Shown here: one piece after another, positions 46,138-54,194 of the stretch
How the letters are laid out: the number at the start of each line of letters is the position of its first letter
How positions within the stretch are numbered: the stretch's first letter is position 1
Origin: Candidatus Hydrogenedentota bacterium
GTDB lineage: Bacteria > Hydrogenedentota > Hydrogenedentia > Hydrogenedentales > JAEUWI01
NCBI GenBank assembly: GCA_016182605.1
Contig: JACPGE010000069.1
Coordinates: forward strand, 62,001-126,000
DNA length: 64,000 nucleotides
Reading direction: 5' to 3'
Translations under genes and position numbers: made by a program
The notes under the pieces: generated by a model
What the model was told of the DNA's origin: nothing
What the model saw: only the letters and a program-made list of their open reading frames with translations
The model's database searches: none

Positions 46138-47309
46138 TCGCGCGTCCATTTCACGTCCTCATCGCACCAGACTCCTTCAAAGAGTCGATGAGTGCGCCGG
46201 AGGCCGCCGCTGCCATGGCCGCCGGTTGGTCGGCAGGCTTTCCAGAATCCACCTGCCGCGTGCTGCCCATGGCCGACGGGGGAGAGGGCACGGCCGAGAT
46301 ACTCAGGATCGCATTGGGTGGCGTGGCGCTGAATCGCCGCGTGCGCGGACCCTTGGGAGCACCGGTGGAAGCGCGCTACACCCTGCTCGACAGCGGAAAG
46401 ACCGCCGTCATCGAACTGGCGGCGGCATCCGGGCTGGCCCTGGCGCCGCCAGCACAACGCGATCCCTTCCGGGCAAGCACCTACGGAACGGGTGAACTCC
46501 TTCGGGATGCTCTCAAACGCGGCGCCGCTCAAATTATCCTGACCCTGGGCGGCAGTGCCACCAACGACGGTGGCGCAGGGCTGGCTCAAGCACTCGGGTT
46601 GTCTCTGCGAGACAAAGCGGGTTGTGAACTTGCCCCCGGAGCAGCCGCATTGGCAAACCTGCACTCGGTCGACGCATCCAATCTGGACCCCAGGCTCTCC
46701 CAAGTCACCATCACCATTGCGTGCGATGTGACCAACCCCCTGTGCGGACCCAATGGCGCCACGCGGATCTACGGACCGCAGAAAGGGGTACTGCCCGGGC
46801 AAGTGGAAGAGATGGACCGCAACTTGAACCATTTTGGGACCCTATTGGAAGGGTTAAGCGGGAGGTCCTTGTGTGCCATTCAGGGAATGGGCGCCGCTGG
46901 TGGCGCGGCTCTACCCTTGGTTGCCTTCGCATTGGCCAAGCTGGAGTCCGGATTCGACCTCGTCGCCCGCGCCTCTCGCTTGGAGGAGGCCATCTCCGAG
47001 GCCGACCTGGTGCTGACTGGAGAGGGTTCCATGGACCGGCAGTCCGCCCAAGGCAAGGTTATCTCTGGTATCTTGGGGCTGGCGTCCCACTCTGATACAG
47101 GCGTCGTCGCGCTTGCCGGTCAATTGGGCGAGGGCTGTGATTCGCTCTTCGCTTTGGGACTGACCGCCGTGTTCAGCATCGCGCCTGGACCGCGCTCCCT
47201 GGATAAGTTGCTCGCCCAAGCGCCGCAACTGATTGAAAACAGAGCGTTTAACGTCGCGCGTTGCTACCGCCATGCGGCACTTCGTTGCCCCCGAAGTGGC
47301 CCGCAATAA
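46134..47309 (+). CDS. Glycerate kinase (GlxK/GarK family)
   Basis: 391 residues, the normal size. VLIAPDSFKESMSAPEAAAAM at the N-terminus, MADGGEGTAEIL, STYGTGELLRDAL and TLGGSATNDGGAGLAQALG are the conserved blocks of the type 1 glycerate kinase fold, and LVLTGEGSMDRQSAQGK lies near the end. It phosphorylates D-glycerate with ATP, to 2- or 3-phosphoglycerate depending on the subgroup, in the cytoplasm. The setting is odd: the gene is the last of a surface-polymer operon, overlapping the TPR gene by four bases. It may supply or salvage glycerate for polymer decoration, or simply share transcription. A strong terminator follows four bases after its stop. Confidence 0.92.
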   Translation: MIARPFHVLIAPDSFKESMSAPEAAAAMAAGWSAGFPESTCRVLPMADGGEGTAEILRIALGGVALNRRVRGPLGAPVEARYTLLDSGKTAVIELAAASGLALAPPAQRDPFRASTYGTGELLRDALKRGAAQIILTLGGSATNDGGAGLAQALGLSLRDKAGCELAPGAAALANLHSVDASNLDPRLSQVTITIACDVTNPLCGPNGATRIYGPQKGVLPGQVEEMDRNLNHFGTLLEGLSGRSLCAIQGMGAAGGAALPLVAFALAKLESGFDLVARASRLEEAISEADLVLTGEGSMDRQSAQGKVISGILGLASHSDTGVVALAGQLGEGCDSLFALGLTAVFSIAPGPRSLDKLLAQAPQLIENRAFNVARCYRHAALRCPRSGPQ

Positions 47310-47313
47310 AATC

Positions 47314-47364
47314 GAGGACGGCGCCGCTGGAGCGGTTAACAGCATCAGCGCCGTCCTCTTATAA
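47314..47364 (+). terminator. Strong intrinsic terminator after the glycerate kinase
   Basis: GAGGACGGCGC (47314-47324) and GCGCCGTCCTC (47348-47358) form a perfect 11-bp stem, with a 23-base loop and TTATAAT behind it. It closes the heparinase-ligase-TPR-kinase operon. Confidence 0.85.
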
Positions 47365-47753
47365 TGCCTCGGGCAGGCCCGCTATGGGTCCTGCCCCTCA
47401 CCGGAGTCTATCGCCCCTCATTCGTTCATCATTATAAGAGCAAGTGTGGTGCCAGAAAACCGATCGTACGGTAAAGTTTATCTAACAATTGGGAAACAAA
47501 AGGGTTGCAGTCAATTGGCGCAATTGGAGCAAGACGGCTTTCGGCCTTCGTCTGCTTCAATGTGTATCTTTCTTGGAAGTTCACTGTGTCAATTCAGGAT
47601 TGCAAACAATCAAAAACAATAAAAGCAATACGGCAAAATTTCTCCTACAATTTTTCGGCAATCGATGATATTCTAGTGTCGCATTTATATACAGGGTATC
47701 TGAGCTCCAGGCACTACCCTGACTTCCCGGGGCAAAGAAAGAAAGCGTTTAAC
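47365..47753. other. AT-rich regulatory region upstream of the FHA activator
   Basis: About 390 bases without a gene, clearly richer in A and T than the surroundings (for example AATCAAAAACAATAAAAGC around 47610-47625). A frame is open through part of it but the codon use is unlike the neighbours and no ribosome site is present. It holds one extended -10 candidate and a GG-N10-GC pair at 47517-47530 that lacks the -12 TT. It likely carries the control region of the next gene. Confidence 0.6.
47666..47674 (+). promoter_or_regulatory. Possible extended -10 promoter for the FHA activator
   Basis: TGATATTCT combines a TG extension with a -10 (TATTCT), about 73 bases before the ATG after allowing for the start point. 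No -35 is apparent. Confidence 0.3.
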
Positions 47754-49613
47754 ATGTTTCATCTCACCGCGAAATCGGGCGCCGCAAAGGGGCGCACTTG
47801 GTCGCTCACCAATAGCGGCATGGTCATTGGACGCGACATGGGTTGCGATATCTGGATCAACGACCCGCTTATCAGCCGCCGCCATTGTATGGTCCACCCG
47901 CACCCCGAAGGCATCCGCGTGGAAGACCTCGGCAGCAGCAACGCAACGCTTATCAACGGCGATCCGGTGGTCCAGGGTCTCGTGCGCCCGGGCGACGAGA
48001 TTACGCTGGGCAACGTCATTCTGCTGGTCACTCAGTTGGAGGGGCTCGAAAGCCAGGCATTCTCCGCACCGGTCGAGCAGCCCACAAGTTCCCTCGCGTG
48101 GGGCAAACCCATTTTTATCGAGGAGGACTCGGAGAAGCTCTTCTCCAAGGGCCGCCCGCGCACTGTGGAGGAGATGGCGGAACTGTTGCGGCTTGGGCGC
48201 ACCTTGAGCCAATGTCATTCCATCAGCGGATGCATCACGCTGTTGTTGGAACGGCTGACGGATGCCTTTGCGCCAAACAGCATGTGGATCCTCCTCAAGC
48301 GGGCACAGCAAAACGAACCCGTGGTCTTTCCTCCGGGCGCGACGGACGAGTGGCGGCGCGACAGCGAGATTCATGAGAACATTACGCGTCTCTTTGCCCG
48401 TCCACGAGGAATCCTGTTGCCGCAACGCGTGTCAAAAAACGGTTTGAAGTGCGTCGCCACCACGGTCATGGCGCCCATGGTGATGGGGGATGAAGTGGCC
48501 GGCATTATCGTCATCCGGACCGAGTCCCCGGGCCGTATCTACGATGAGAGCGATCTCGAAATGCTCCTTGCGATTGCCCATACCGTGGCCCCCTATATCA
48601 AGGCCGTGGAGCGTCTGGAGCAATTGCGCCTGGAGAACCAGCGCCTTGCCACGCGCATTCCAAACGCCGTCGCCCTCGTCGGCAACAGCCCCCCCATGAC
48701 CCGCCTGCGCGAAACCATCACCAGTTGCGCCCGCTCCAACCTCAACGTGATGGTCCTCGGTGAAACCGGCACCGGCAAAGAACTCGTTGCCCACATGATT
48801 CACAACCTCAGCGAACGTTCAGACCGCGATCTCATTGTCGTGAACTGTGCAGCCATCCCCGACGAACTCTTCGAGAGCGAAGTTTTCGGCCATGTGCGCG
48901 GAGCCTTCACCGGCGCCCATACCGAACGCCGCGGACTCATGGAGGAGAGCGACGTCAGCACGCTCTTCCTCGACGAAGTCTGCGACCTCAGCCTGGCCAA
49001 TCAGGCCCGCCTCCTGCGTGCCATCGAAACGGGCGCCTTCCGAAGACTCGGCGGCAAGGAAACCATACGCGTCAACGTGCGCGTGCTCTCCGCTACCAAC
49101 AAATTCGTCGCGGAGGAAGTCGCGCGCGGCACCTTCCGGCGCGACCTTTACCACCGCCTCAACGCCTTCGAAATCCATATGCCGCCCCTGCGCGAACGCA
49201 TCGCCGACATCCCCATTCTCGCGGAACATTTTCTCCGGCGCGCCATGGAGAATCACCATGTCAGTCTCGAAGGTTTTGAGCCCGAGGCCATGCAGACCCT
49301 CGAACAGCGTGAATGGCTGGGCAACGTGCGCGAACTCAAGAACGTGATCGAGCGTGCCGTGGTCGTCGCACGCTATGACCGCATCCGCCTCGAAGACCTG
49401 CACGCGGGCGCAAGCGGCACTGTGCGGGGCGACGACTTTCCAACACTCGAGACGATGGAATGCGAACACATCCAGCGTGCCCTGGAGTTGTGCCGGGGCA
49501 ACGTGTCTGAAGCTTCCAAAATGCTGGGTATAGGACGCAGTACCCTCTACCGCAAAGTGACTGCCTACAACCTTTCCATACTAGCCCGGAGTGACTTTCC
49601 CGCCAATTCCTGA
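47754..49613 (+). CDS. FHA-GAF-AAA+ sigma-54 transcription activator
   Basis: 619 residues. FHA domain (1-95) with GRD at 26-28, SRRH at 41-44 and SSNATLING in place of the usual N-G-T, so phosphothreonine binding is plausible. A GAF-like domain covers about 145-290. The AAA+ domain (305-545) has GETGTGKE at 336-343, an intact GAFTGA loop (383-388) and LFLDEVCDL. An HTH_8/Fis unit (NVSEASKMLGIGRSTLYRKV) ends the protein. It should activate RpoN promoters in response to a Ser/Thr kinase or a ligand; the giant kinase of this window is an obvious but unproven partner. The small HTH gene downstream has a sigma-54 promoter starting four bases after this stop. Confidence 0.94.
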   Translation: MFHLTAKSGAAKGRTWSLTNSGMVIGRDMGCDIWINDPLISRRHCMVHPHPEGIRVEDLGSSNATLINGDPVVQGLVRPGDEITLGNVILLVTQLEGLESQAFSAPVEQPTSSLAWGKPIFIEEDSEKLFSKGRPRTVEEMAELLRLGRTLSQCHSISGCITLLLERLTDAFAPNSMWILLKRAQQNEPVVFPPGATDEWRRDSEIHENITRLFARPRGILLPQRVSKNGLKCVATTVMAPMVMGDEVAGIIVIRTESPGRIYDESDLEMLLAIAHTVAPYIKAVERLEQLRLENQRLATRIPNAVALVGNSPPMTRLRETITSCARSNLNVMVLGETGTGKELVAHMIHNLSERSDRDLIVVNCAAIPDELFESEVFGHVRGAFTGAHTERRGLMEESDVSTLFLDEVCDLSLANQARLLRAIETGAFRRLGGKETIRVNVRVLSATNKFVAEEVARGTFRRDLYHRLNAFEIHMPPLRERIADIPILAEHFLRRAMENHHVSLEGFEPEAMQTLEQREWLGNVRELKNVIERAVVVARYDRIRLEDLHAGASGTVRGDDFPTLETMECEHIQRALELCRGNVSEASKMLGIGRSTLYRKVTAYNLSILARSDFPANS

Positions 49614-49616
49614 ACT

Positions 49617-49632
49617 TGGCATTTCACTTGCT
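49617..49632 (+). promoter_or_regulatory. Sigma-54 (RpoN) -24/-12 promoter
   Basis: TGGCAT-TTCAC-TTGCT: GG at 49618-49619 and GC at 49630-49631 are separated by exactly ten bases, matching the TGGCAC-N5-TTGCW consensus in all but the last base of the -24 box. The predicted start is near 49643, 37 bases ahead of the ATG at 49680. It begins four bases after the stop of the sigma-54 activator gene. Confidence 0.8.
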
Positions 49633-49679
49633 CCTGTACATGCAGATGTGGATGCACCAAAGACAGGAGAACGGAAACC

Positions 49680-49907
49680 ATGAAAAAGAACCCCCTGAAC
49701 TTCAACGACGTATTTCGAAGTAGTGGCGCTGCACAGATCATCCCCAAGTCCAAGATCGAAAAGGCGTTACGGGAATCCGGCGGCGACCTGCGCCGGGCCG
49801 CGCGCCAATGCGATTTGACGACCCGGGAGCTGTTGCAGCATATCGTGGAACAGGGTATTTCGCCGGAATACATTCCGGAACAGGTGATTTGTCTGCAAGA
49901 GGGCTGA
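49680..49907 (+). CDS. 75-residue Fis-type HTH protein under a sigma-54 promoter
   Basis: 75 residues. AGGAGA (49665-49670) gives a good ribosome site nine bases before the ATG. The core KIEKALRESGGDLRRAARQ followed by DLTTRELLQHIVEQGI has the HTH_8/Fis spacing (I..AL....G....AA......R.L......GI) seen at the end of the activator just upstream. There is no AAA+ or sensor domain, so on its own it can only bind DNA or compete with a larger activator. It is the only gene directly behind the -24/-12 promoter. The downstream 147 bases contain three hairpins before a convergent gene. The role as a feedback regulator is inference. Confidence 0.85.
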   Translation: MKKNPLNFNDVFRSSGAAQIIPKSKIEKALRESGGDLRRAARQCDLTTRELLQHIVEQGISPEYIPEQVICLQEG

Positions 49908-51199: not shown

Positions 51200-54127
51200 T
51201 CACAGTGCGCTCAGTTCCGCCTCGATCAACGCCCGGCTTTGCGGGTCGCTGCTCACCTTCTCCAGCACAATCCGATACTCGGCCCGAGCCTCCTCCACGA
51301 AGCCAAAATTCTTCAATGACCGCGCGAGCCCCAGCCGCACGTCCAGGCTTTCCGGAAAGAGCGCCAGCGCCTCCCGCAGCTTGCCGATGGCTTCTTCGCC
51401 CCGGTTCATGCGCGCCAGCGTGTCCGCCCAGTGCACCGCGAGCACCGCGCGCTCGCTCTCCGCCGCACAACCGTCAATCTCGCGGAAGCCAGCCTCCGCC
51501 GTGCCCAGTTGGTTCAAGCGCGCGGCAATGATCGCCAGGTTCAACCGGCTGCGGCATAGCATGGCAGCATCGATCCCGCCTGTTTCGCCGATGAGGTCCT
51601 TCAAAAGCTGTGCCGCCCAACTGTACGCTGGCACCGCGTCCATTCCCGTCTCGCTGTTATGCGATCGGATGGCCGCAAGCAATCCGAGCGTGGCATCTTC
51701 TGCCGCGCCGCCGCCATGCGTAAGCAGCGCATGGATCGCGTTCACATGCGAGAGCGCGTGGGCGCCCGTGGCTTCAAGCGATTGGCAACTTGTGACTATA
51801 CTGCCCTTGAGCAGGTCGAGGCGTTCATTGCGGAACGCATACTGGGCAAACTGCGTCCACACCTCGGGCAGCAGCGGCGCATATTGAACTGCCATCTGAA
51901 ACGCATGATCCGCCGCGCCAAAGTTCTTGTCCCCCTTCTCCAAGACTTGGGCAAGCCACAGATGCGCCGTGGCCACGGCGATATGGTCCACCGGTTCCAT
52001 GGCCAGCAGCCGGTCGATCTGTGCGTAAATCGCGCCGCGGGCCCGGTCAAAACGCTGGTGTTCGTAGGCAAATTTCAAGTAGGCCGACCACGCCGCCTGA
52101 TTCGCCGGCTCCACTTGCACCGCGCGCACCCGCATCGCTTCCGCCGCATCCAAATCATGCGACAGTTCCGCATTGCTCGCGATCATCCCGTAGAGTTCGC
52201 CCTGGTTCCGTGCCCCCAGTTCGATCGCTTTGAGAAAATGCTGGTTGGCTTCATGCCGGAACGCCGCCTGCGCCCCCGCGCCCGCGCCCCCGCCCGGCGT
52301 GAGCAAGGCCCCGATCGACGCCGCACGCCCCAGCAGGGTCTCTCCCCGCGCAAACATCGGGCAAATCGCCAACATGTTTCCGGCGTGGCCCTTTGCCTCT
52401 TCCAGCAGCGCCATCCCGCCTCCCGCATCGCCGCCCGTGGAAGCCTGGGCAGCAAGCAACAGTTTCGTATCGGCCAGGTCCAGTTGCGTAAGCATGTAAT
52501 CTGGACACACACGGGCCGCCTCGCTGAAGTGCGTTTGTGCCAGCTCCGGCCGATCCTGTTTCAGCGCAATCAGGCCCATCCAGCGGCTCGGCTGCCAGTT
52601 CCATGGCGCCAGGCGCCGCGCCGCATCGAAATCCGCCAACGCGGCCTCATAGTCCCGCTCCGCATCCGCTGCCTTCCCCGCCTGAATCCAATATTCTCCC
52701 GCAAAGACCCGTGTATTCATCATCAGCATGGCCAGGATCAACACGGCTACTGCGCCTCCGGCGAGGCGCCTGCGAAATGCCGTGCCCTGAATATCCTGCG
52801 TCATGCCACCCTGGCCAAGCCACAGGCCTTCCAGCGCGCCCAGCAACAGAAAAAAAATCGCGGCAGACACCGGCACACGCAGATTGAACCCGAAAAGACC
52901 ATCCGCCGCAAAGGCCGTAAAGATCCCGGCAAGCATATACCCCGTCCGGCGGCGCTGCGCGCTGACCGCGTCATACGCCAGCATGAGGCTGAATCCAATC
53001 GCAAGAAGCAAAATCGAGACATAAAGTCCCGCGGTGGCCATGCCCCCATCGATCGCAAGTTCCAGCAAATCGTTGTGCACATGCGCATTCTGACGGAGTT
53101 CCTCGGCAAACCACTGCTGCTCGAACTCGGTCCAATATTCGGGATAGCCGATCTTGTAGACACCCGGCCCATGACCCAGCAAGGGCGCGTCCAGCAACAT
53201 TGCCGATGCGCTCACATACGACTGATACCGGATCAGCAGCGACACGTCCAGAGGGAACGGCGTCCCCGTGCGCGCATGGGTGTATGCGAGCATCGCCCCT
53301 GCGCCCGCAATGCCCAGGACCACCGCCGCCACCATCGCCGCCACGGCCGCCCGCAGCGATCGCTTGAGAATCCGTTTTGAAAGCCACGCCGTGCCCACGA
53401 GCAGCCCCGCCGCGGCCAATGCCAGCCATCCTGCGCGCTGGCCCGTCTGCGACAAGTGAAAAAGGAAAAGCACCAGGCACGGCACGGAGAACCACCAGCC
53501 CTGGAAGAAGAGGTAGATCGCCGCCACGATTAGCAAGATGAGCGCGTGCGCCGCATAATTGGGGTTGCCATACGTCGCCGGCAGGTTCGTGTACGTGTCC
53601 GACGTGCGATCCGCCCACGGAAGCGGGTCTTCGCCGCTTTTCTGGACAATCGCGTAGACCGCCGCCAAGGCTGCGGCTGCGCAGAGCCACTTGAGCAGCG
53701 ACGTCACCGCCGCCTCGTTCAGGTAGACCTGGCTCGCGAGCACGTAGAGCAGGAACAGGGACAGAAAGCCCATCCACTCCAGCACACTGATCCGGAAATA
53801 GTCCGAGCCCAGGGTCGCCACGGCATAGAAGGCGAAAAACAATACGAACACGTCGAGGAAAATCGCCGGACGGCGGAATCCAACCCGCTGCCAGTAGAGC
53901 GCGCCCACCCAGATTAGCGACAAGAGCCCCGCAGTCCACGCGATCAAGAGCCGTTTAATGTCCCCAGCGGGATCCGGCGTGTAAAAGTACACCGCCAAAA
54001 TCACCATAAAGGCAAATAGGTTCAGACACACCCGCGTCAACTGGGGCAGCCGCTGTTCTGCTTCGTGCAAGATCGTACTCCAAGGACAGGAAATCCCCGA
54101 TTCAGGCTCGTTGCCAATCGCGCCCAT
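51200..54127 (-). CDS. O-antigen ligase-like membrane protein with TPR tail (second copy)
   Basis: 975 residues from ATG 54127, which has AGGGG seven bases before it; the frame is open further up but without a ribosome site. The same design as 42428-45403: membrane helices to about residue 480, a ligase loop with GHGPGVYKIGYPEYW and NAHVHNDLLELAIDGG, then a long TPR region (DYEAALADFDAARRLAPWN, LGTAEAGFREIDGCA). The two proteins are clearly paralogous but diverged. It may ligate a second polymer or glycosylate another target. It is transcribed away from a TPR-anchor gene at 54248, its likely partner. Confidence 0.87.
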   Translation of the reverse strand: MGAIGNEPESGISCPWSTILHEAEQRLPQLTRVCLNLFAFMVILAVYFYTPDPAGDIKRLLIAWTAGLLSLIWVGALYWQRVGFRRPAIFLDVFVLFFAFYAVATLGSDYFRISVLEWMGFLSLFLLYVLASQVYLNEAAVTSLLKWLCAAAALAAVYAIVQKSGEDPLPWADRTSDTYTNLPATYGNPNYAAHALILLIVAAIYLFFQGWWFSVPCLVLFLFHLSQTGQRAGWLALAAAGLLVGTAWLSKRILKRSLRAAVAAMVAAVVLGIAGAGAMLAYTHARTGTPFPLDVSLLIRYQSYVSASAMLLDAPLLGHGPGVYKIGYPEYWTEFEQQWFAEELRQNAHVHNDLLELAIDGGMATAGLYVSILLLAIGFSLMLAYDAVSAQRRRTGYMLAGIFTAFAADGLFGFNLRVPVSAAIFFLLLGALEGLWLGQGGMTQDIQGTAFRRRLAGGAVAVLILAMLMMNTRVFAGEYWIQAGKAADAERDYEAALADFDAARRLAPWNWQPSRWMGLIALKQDRPELAQTHFSEAARVCPDYMLTQLDLADTKLLLAAQASTGGDAGGGMALLEEAKGHAGNMLAICPMFARGETLLGRAASIGALLTPGGGAGAGAQAAFRHEANQHFLKAIELGARNQGELYGMIASNAELSHDLDAAEAMRVRAVQVEPANQAAWSAYLKFAYEHQRFDRARGAIYAQIDRLLAMEPVDHIAVATAHLWLAQVLEKGDKNFGAADHAFQMAVQYAPLLPEVWTQFAQYAFRNERLDLLKGSIVTSCQSLEATGAHALSHVNAIHALLTHGGGAAEDATLGLLAAIRSHNSETGMDAVPAYSWAAQLLKDLIGETGGIDAAMLCRSRLNLAIIAARLNQLGTAEAGFREIDGCAAESERAVLAVHWADTLARMNRGEEAIGKLREALALFPESLDVRLGLARSLKNFGFVEEARAEYRIVLEKVSSDPQSRALIEAELSAL

Positions 54128-54194
54128 GCTAGCACCCCTGCGGACGGCAGCGCAAAAGCAGGGGGCCGGGCACTCGTGCACGGCGTGTGTATTC

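Follow-up and report, generated by a model that had tools for sequence, protein, structure and literature searches.

A stretch of DNA of 64,000 nt (hereafter, the window) carries a gene for a protein of only 75 residues directly behind the gene for a sigma-54 activator, with a -24/-12 (sigma-54) promoter-like site between the two. This raises the question of what a protein limited to an HTH_8-like domain might do for an activator that carries a domain of the same kind. The features of the locus that bear on this question are the following.

47754-49613, plus strand: FHA-GAF-AAA+(GAFTGA)-HTH_8 sigma-54 activator, 619 aa (Pfam and translation; member of a clade of 19, SH-aLRT 100)
49617-49632, plus strand: -24/-12 (sigma-54) promoter-like site TGGCATTTCACTTGCT (consensus match)
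49680-49907, plus strand: gene for the 75-residue HTH_8-like mini-protein, P0001 (coding potential and predicted structure)
49746-49853, plus strand: three-helix HTH_8-like core of P0001, residues 23-58 (AlphaFold helices; Foldseek match to the NtrC4 DNA-binding domain)
49818-49841, plus strand: degenerate recognition-helix octet TTRELLQH, where activators have GRSTLYRK (column comparison with 81 activators)

The activator has FHA, sigma-54 AAA+ (Sigma54_activat, 210.5 bits) and HTH_8 (55.9 bits) domains that score above the Pfam cut-offs and an intact GAFTGA loop, while GAF was found as a sub-threshold match only. The genome encodes approximately 20 full sigma-54 activators, and a scan of the genome_contigs collection with the activator alignment matched generic sigma-54 activators only. 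The stop codon of the activator, TGA, occupies 49611-49613, and TGGCATTTCACTTGCT lies 3 nt past it and 63 nt 5' of the mini-gene, with exact GG-N10-GC spacing and one mismatch to TGGCAYRN4TTGCW. Loose sites (no more than 2 mismatches) are not rare, as 29 were found in the 64 kb compared to 31.6 expected. By comparison, the strict motif TGGCAYN5TTGCW has 29 copies in the 6.76-Mb genome versus 4 for the reversed control, and 2 of these 29 copies flank one and the same activator, that at 47754-49613. Other strict copies precede an rpoN-like gene (L116), ammonium-transporter-like genes (L123/L125) and a prepilin-like gene (L120), as identified by eye from translations, which argues that the -24/-12 motif is in use in this genome. 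The rpoN-like gene (L116, G000:C10:84048) has its strict site about 35 nt before the start, which suggests autoregulation. In 49300-49617, nothing convincing was found that resembles the enhancer palindrome of the activator's clade, when scored with a position weight matrix (PWM) that was built from 19 clade sites and may not be this activator's. Transcription of the mini-gene would probably depend on RpoN and may be controlled by the activator encoded at 47754-49613.

The 75-codon mini-gene is a real gene. Its codon usage (0.365 bits/codon) equals that of the activator (0.361) in strength and is the top of the six frames, and AGGAG is found 10 nt 5' of its ATG at 49680. The mini-gene stands alone in the window; the next gene is convergent and encodes an aldo/keto reductase (Pfam), and a simple scan found no intrinsic terminator 3' of the mini-gene. 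Pfam HTH_8 (PF02954) matches P0001 below threshold (E 0.025; 14.7 bits against a gathering cut-off of 22) and matches 10 of 15 mini-proteins of this kind at E<=0.1 (best 1e-7). The top Pfam match for P0001, UBA_HYPK (E 3.6e-4, below its own cut-off), was read as a three-helix look-alike. AlphaFold places helices at residues 23-33, 37-43 and 48-58, with a pLDDT of about 86 for core residues 21-60, and the modelled core superposes on the DNA-binding domain of NtrC4. The best structural matches include 3e7l and 4fth, DNA-binding domains from sigma-54 activators that align over 38-40 columns at an rmsd of 0.8-0.9. In the Foldseek ranking, most of the top places are taken by domains of this kind (2m8g, NtrC4, NtrC1), with Fis next; the E values are at least 0.25, the model being so short, and rank and rmsd agree. 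The model therefore suggests, for P0001, the tri-helical fold of NtrC/Fis DNA-binding domains.

Recurrence of this arrangement was assessed across the host order, sampled as 68 genomes in 11 families with 81 activator homologues, the window's own included; sites were scored by our own weighting of the -24/-12 consensus. Sites with a score of at least 0.93 were found within 450 nt downstream of 22 of the 81 activators on the same strand; the opposite strand had none, and a stretch of equal length inside the gene had 3. An HTH_8-like small frame behind both the activator and a site (score at least 0.87) was present for 11 of the 81 homologues. These mini-HTH loci are scattered across the activator tree (7 changes), which indicates that the pairing of activator and mini-gene is recurrent. 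Five further short genes in the order were identified with a profile built from the small HTH proteins, and with a total of 16 such genes the case of the window is not a one-off. Fourteen of the 16 have a -24/-12 site (score at least 0.89) 32-114 nt before the start, compared to 6.8% of random 330-nt stretches of the loci; the 11 mini-genes found via activator and site are biased towards having one, and a site is present for three of the five found by the profile. An FHA-GAF activator directly precedes 11 of the 16 and does not directly precede the other five. When 318 genomes outside the order were scanned, nearly all hits of the profile were full-length activators and no such mini-gene was recognised, with the possible exception of one 136-codon frame (G091). 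Moreover, palindromes of the kind expected for enhancers lie between activator and site at several loci (L054, L056, L067, L070, L092 and L059).

These results bear out most of what a preliminary description of the locus had read from the sequence, i.e., a near-consensus -24/-12 site with exact spacing just past the activator stop, an FHA sigma-54 activator upstream and, behind the site, a 75-residue HTH_8-type gene, which has a coding signal and an NtrC4/Fis-like modelled core. The same description had left the conservation of the neighbourhood and its site to be sought in relatives, where both were found, at the 11 homologues given above.

Within the window's own activator clade (19 members), the HTH mini-gene was found in the window alone and in 0 of the 18 closest homologues. 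A second, unrelated family of small proteins (approximately 55 residues, WYLV-GY-RW-L) was observed behind -24/-12 sites at L036-L038, L055, L075, L054 and L069; no Pfam match above cut-off was found for this family, and two loci have both an HTH_8-like frame and a WYLV-GY-RW-L frame. In L036-L038, which belong to the window's family, the WYLV-GY-RW-L ORF takes the slot of the mini-gene, preceded by a -24/-12 site and followed by a convergent gene. This convergent gene resembles, by eye, the ligase/TPR gene that is found one gene beyond the convergent neighbour in the window (51200-54181, minus strand). Upstream of the site, enhancer-type palindromes were found in L036 and, as a pair with 23 nt spacing, in L038; the match in L037 is weaker. 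At three further loci (L265, L267 and L269), the HTH mini-gene appears by eye to head runs of genes that include some for very large proteins of secreted or beta-helix-like type, so that the partner of the mini-protein may not be the adjoining activator; this layout also suggests RpoN control of the cell exterior.

With regard to the origin of the mini-gene, no close homologue of P0001 was found in 100 relatives (distant HTH_8 tails only), in the genome_contigs collection or in phages. A leave-one-out profile, built without P0001, ranked it 74 of 82, with no preference over activator HTHs. The preliminary description had likened the mini-protein to the C-terminus of its neighbour, but the likeness is not a special one, as the neighbour's own HTH ranks 71 of 81 activator HTHs in similarity to P0001. 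Across the mini-proteins, the cognate HTH ranks first in only 1 of 11 cases. The idea that the mini-gene arose recently by copying of the neighbour's C-terminus was therefore rejected. Ordinary truncated activators are disfavoured by the position of the promoter and by consistent residue changes.

These changes became apparent when 15 mini-proteins were compared column by column with the 81 activators. In Fis, Arg85 has been described as the sole important base contact (PMC3711457); the equivalent residue is R/K in 79 of 81 activators and in none of the 15 mini-proteins. The Thr87-equivalent is Thr in 76 of 81 activators, and Glu, which is found there in 0 of 81 activators, takes its place in 10 of 15 mini-proteins including P0001. 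Similarly, the terminal Lys/Arg of the recognition helix is present in 80 of 81 activators and 0 of 15 mini-proteins, and the Asn of the 'GN' turn is changed to Asp in 12 of 15 mini-proteins, P0001 among them. For LuxO, the critical residues include Tyr426 and Lys428 of the equivalent helix, and helix 1 may function in dimerisation (PMC11407668). A helix-1 Glu is near-invariant in activators (78 of 81) and is never found in the mini-proteins (0 of 15), 7 of which have Arg; its loss could thus reflect an interface specific to heterodimers or else a lost interface. The mean net charge of the core is +3.3 in activators versus -1.5 in mini-proteins (p 3.5e-9), while the core of P0001 itself is neutral to slightly basic (+1), with one Arg left in the octet TTRELLQH. 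By these alignments, the recognition helix is degenerate, with its DNA-contacting residues lost, in all mini-proteins compared. The preliminary description had also proposed that the mini-protein could bind the same upstream sites as the activator; this is now disfavoured because the family is acidic and no longer has the residues with which the HTH_8 recognition helix contacts DNA.

The second of the two strict sites that flank the activator faces the opposite direction, and the region upstream of the activator has the following features.

47439-47454, minus strand: second, divergent -24/-12 site TGGCACCACACTTGCT (strict match; same place in seven relatives)
47300-47428, minus strand: candidate structured RNA with a long GC hairpin at its end (folding energy -59.4 kcal/mol, z -4.2)
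47564-47578, strand not assigned: degenerate candidate for an enhancer element, copy 1 (PWM score of 0.0 bits, ranked second in the region; weak)
47586-47600, strand not assigned: degenerate candidate for an enhancer element, copy 2 (PWM score of 7.7 bits, ranked 6th in the 64 kb)

The divergent site (47454-47439, minus strand) lies 299 nt upstream of the activator and was found in 7 of the 18 closest activator relatives (L033, L035, L040, L043, L046, L047 and L049). No convincing gene was found behind it; a 144-codon antisense ORF (46911-47345, minus strand) has a weak coding signal (0.067), overlaps the glycerate kinase gene and was not considered a gene. The divergent stretch matched no Rfam family above threshold, and a sub-threshold match to ncS035 (E 0.049 alone, 0.97 in a larger search) was taken as chance. 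An RNA-like stretch with a stem-loop (ACTCCT-GAGGA-AGGAGT) is conserved within one genus, and beyond this genus the primary sequence is poorly conserved. The motif CTCCGGTGAGG followed by a hairpin was observed in the window (47407-47370, minus strand), L033 and L035; in the rest of the order it is rare, as judged from a longer version of the pattern. The motif was not accepted as the mark of one RNA family, since its distance from the site is approximately 260-280 nt in L033/L035 and 48 nt in the window. The apparently non-coding stretch at 47300-47454 (minus strand) is a candidate for an RpoN-dependent sRNA, and the module probably includes a divergent RNA beside the mini-regulator.

Two clear palindromes of the TTCCCAAATTGGGAA type, 23 nt apart, were found in L035, L040, L043, L046 and L047; L049 has one clear copy with a weaker one 23 nt off, and L033 has one weaker copy. 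In L043, L046, L047 and L049, a near-perfect TTCCCA(A/T)3TGGGAA tandem with 23 nt spacing (its second copy weaker in L049) precedes the activator homologue by approximately 97-132 nt. By their sequence, these tandems are strong candidates for the enhancers of the activator clade. The copies of the degenerate pair in the window (47564 and 47586) are 22 nt apart, and the distance from copy 2 to the divergent -24 element matches that in the relatives.

Which role does the mini-protein then have? The explanation to which we lean, tentatively and at somewhat under an even chance for the whole, is that the RpoN-driven mini-protein works at the protein level, as a partner of sigma-54 activators or as their antagonist, and acts as a feedback brake. 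The FHA-GAF activator would probably be tuned by phosphothreonine via FHA and by a ligand via GAF, and it or a paralogue would open the -24/-12 promoter directly behind the activator gene. The promoter at 49617-49632 would then drive the 75-residue HTH_8-only protein, which appears to keep the DNA-binding fold of the activator and its first helix, with a recognition helix that is degenerate and no longer basic. With the fold kept and the DNA-reading residues lost, the mini-protein most likely acts at the protein level; it may pair with the HTH_8 of the neighbouring sigma-54 activator or of one of its paralogues, and this pairing would spoil or retune the enhancer binding of the activator, as in TrlR/TraR or Id/bHLH. 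The gene, the site, their recurring arrangement and the degenerate helix can be read from the sequences themselves; that heterodimers form, that the effect is negative and which protein is the partner is what we infer. The more specific proposal of a lineage-specific, RpoN-controlled HTH_8-only family that inhibits or retunes activators by heterodimers of DNA-binding domains, with several recruitments beside FHA-GAF activators and as a bacterial equivalent of Id-type microproteins, is possible and still doubtful.

The fold of P0001, which is that of NtrC-type/Fis DNA-binding domains, could also belong to a DNA-binding competitor or architectural factor, i.e., a small Fis that occupies the enhancers of the activator or bends promoter DNA. 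The Arg retained in TTRELLQH and the core charge of +1 would suit such a role. Against it, the family has acidic cores and is without the Arg85-, Thr87- and Lys-equivalents, and P0001 is poorly similar to the neighbour's HTH; we consider it distinctly unlikely, and a partner or antagonist at the protein level is favoured over competition for DNA. The partner could instead be a different activator, RNA polymerase or a product of the secreted-protein operons that the mini-gene heads in relatives, with the neighbouring activator controlling expression only. The operon-like runs at L265, L267 and L269, the five mini-genes not directly after an FHA-GAF activator and the approximately 20 full sigma-54 activators encoded in the genome are consistent with this explanation. 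Against it, 11 of 16 mini-genes do directly follow such an activator and the mini-gene in the window is solitary, with a convergent gene next; we consider it unlikely but deserving of serious attention.

Another explanation makes a divergent, Qrr-like sRNA (47428-47300, minus strand) the main output of the activator, and the downstream site and mini-gene a late and minor addition here. This would account for a divergent site kept in 7 other clade members, most of them with tandem palindromes 23 nt apart, and for a mini-HTH gene that within the clade is confined to the window. Taking into consideration that the primary sequence of the RNA is poorly conserved past one genus and that three members of the family lack the divergent site and instead have the downstream site with a different small ORF, we regard it as improbable. 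That a decayed HTH fragment came to lie behind a fortuitous -24/-12 match is more improbable still; the lack of a close homologue of P0001 in 100 relatives and the abundance of loose sites could indicate chance, but the coding signal is as strong as that of the activator, strict sites are rare genome-wide and the arrangement recurs in relatives.

The activator resembles sigma-54 activators (bEBPs) of type Ib with HTH_8, in the classification of PMC3162934, in having a signal domain, an AAA+ domain with GAFTGA, a C-terminal HTH_8 and a target promoter that adjoins the activator gene; the window differs by an HTH_8-only mini-gene behind its own -24/-12 site. The types distinguished in PMC3162934 include activators without a sensor or DNA-binding domain and do not include HTH-only proteins. 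Like Fis, the mini-protein is a small stand-alone protein with the HTH_8 fold; unlike Fis, its model has no N-terminal beta hairpin, the Arg85-, Thr87- and Lys-equivalents are lost and its promoter is of the RpoN type. The partners in hetero-oligomeric bEBPs, such as HrpR/HrpS, FleQ/FleT and VnfA1/VnfA3, carry AAA+ domains, whereas the mini-protein has no AAA+ domain. The likeness to these systems is one of control by mixed complexes of sigma-54 activators (PMC9542535).

In the TrlR-TraR system of Agrobacterium (PMC3907764), a defective relative of an activator has been shown to block it via inactive dimers, as is proposed here. However, TrlR is without a DNA-binding domain while the mini-proteins consist of that domain only, with a degenerate reading helix, and the system belongs to the LuxR family and not to sigma-54. 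LuxO-Qrr1 of Vibrio (PMC8043402, PMC11407668) is similar in that a divergent -24/-12 promoter for a structured RNA lies ahead of the sigma-54 activator gene, with two enhancer sites approximately 100 bp from the promoter; in the window, the RNA and the degenerate pair of enhancer elements are candidates. It differs in that LuxO has a receiver domain in place of the FHA-GAF sensor of the window's activator, which has an extra downstream mini-HTH gene, and the putative RNA of the window is unrelated and of no known Rfam family.

What is known at this locus is thus the sigma-54 activator module, and what is new is the domain-only small regulator that has been added to it. To our knowledge, the restrainers of sigma-54 activators are mostly proteins unrelated to the activators. 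If the proposed role is true, a domain-only relative with RpoN-dependent expression would represent a minimal and easily tested feedback design, and the consistent residue changes (Thr to Glu, Asn to Asp and the loss of Arg and Lys) predict targets for mutation. The locus also points to a divergent RpoN-type RNA at the same activator. The recurring mini-genes beside sister regulators suggest a previously unrecognised small-protein brake or partner, and short HTH_8 genes behind -24/-12 sites, which are easily missed in annotation, are worth seeking in other phyla.
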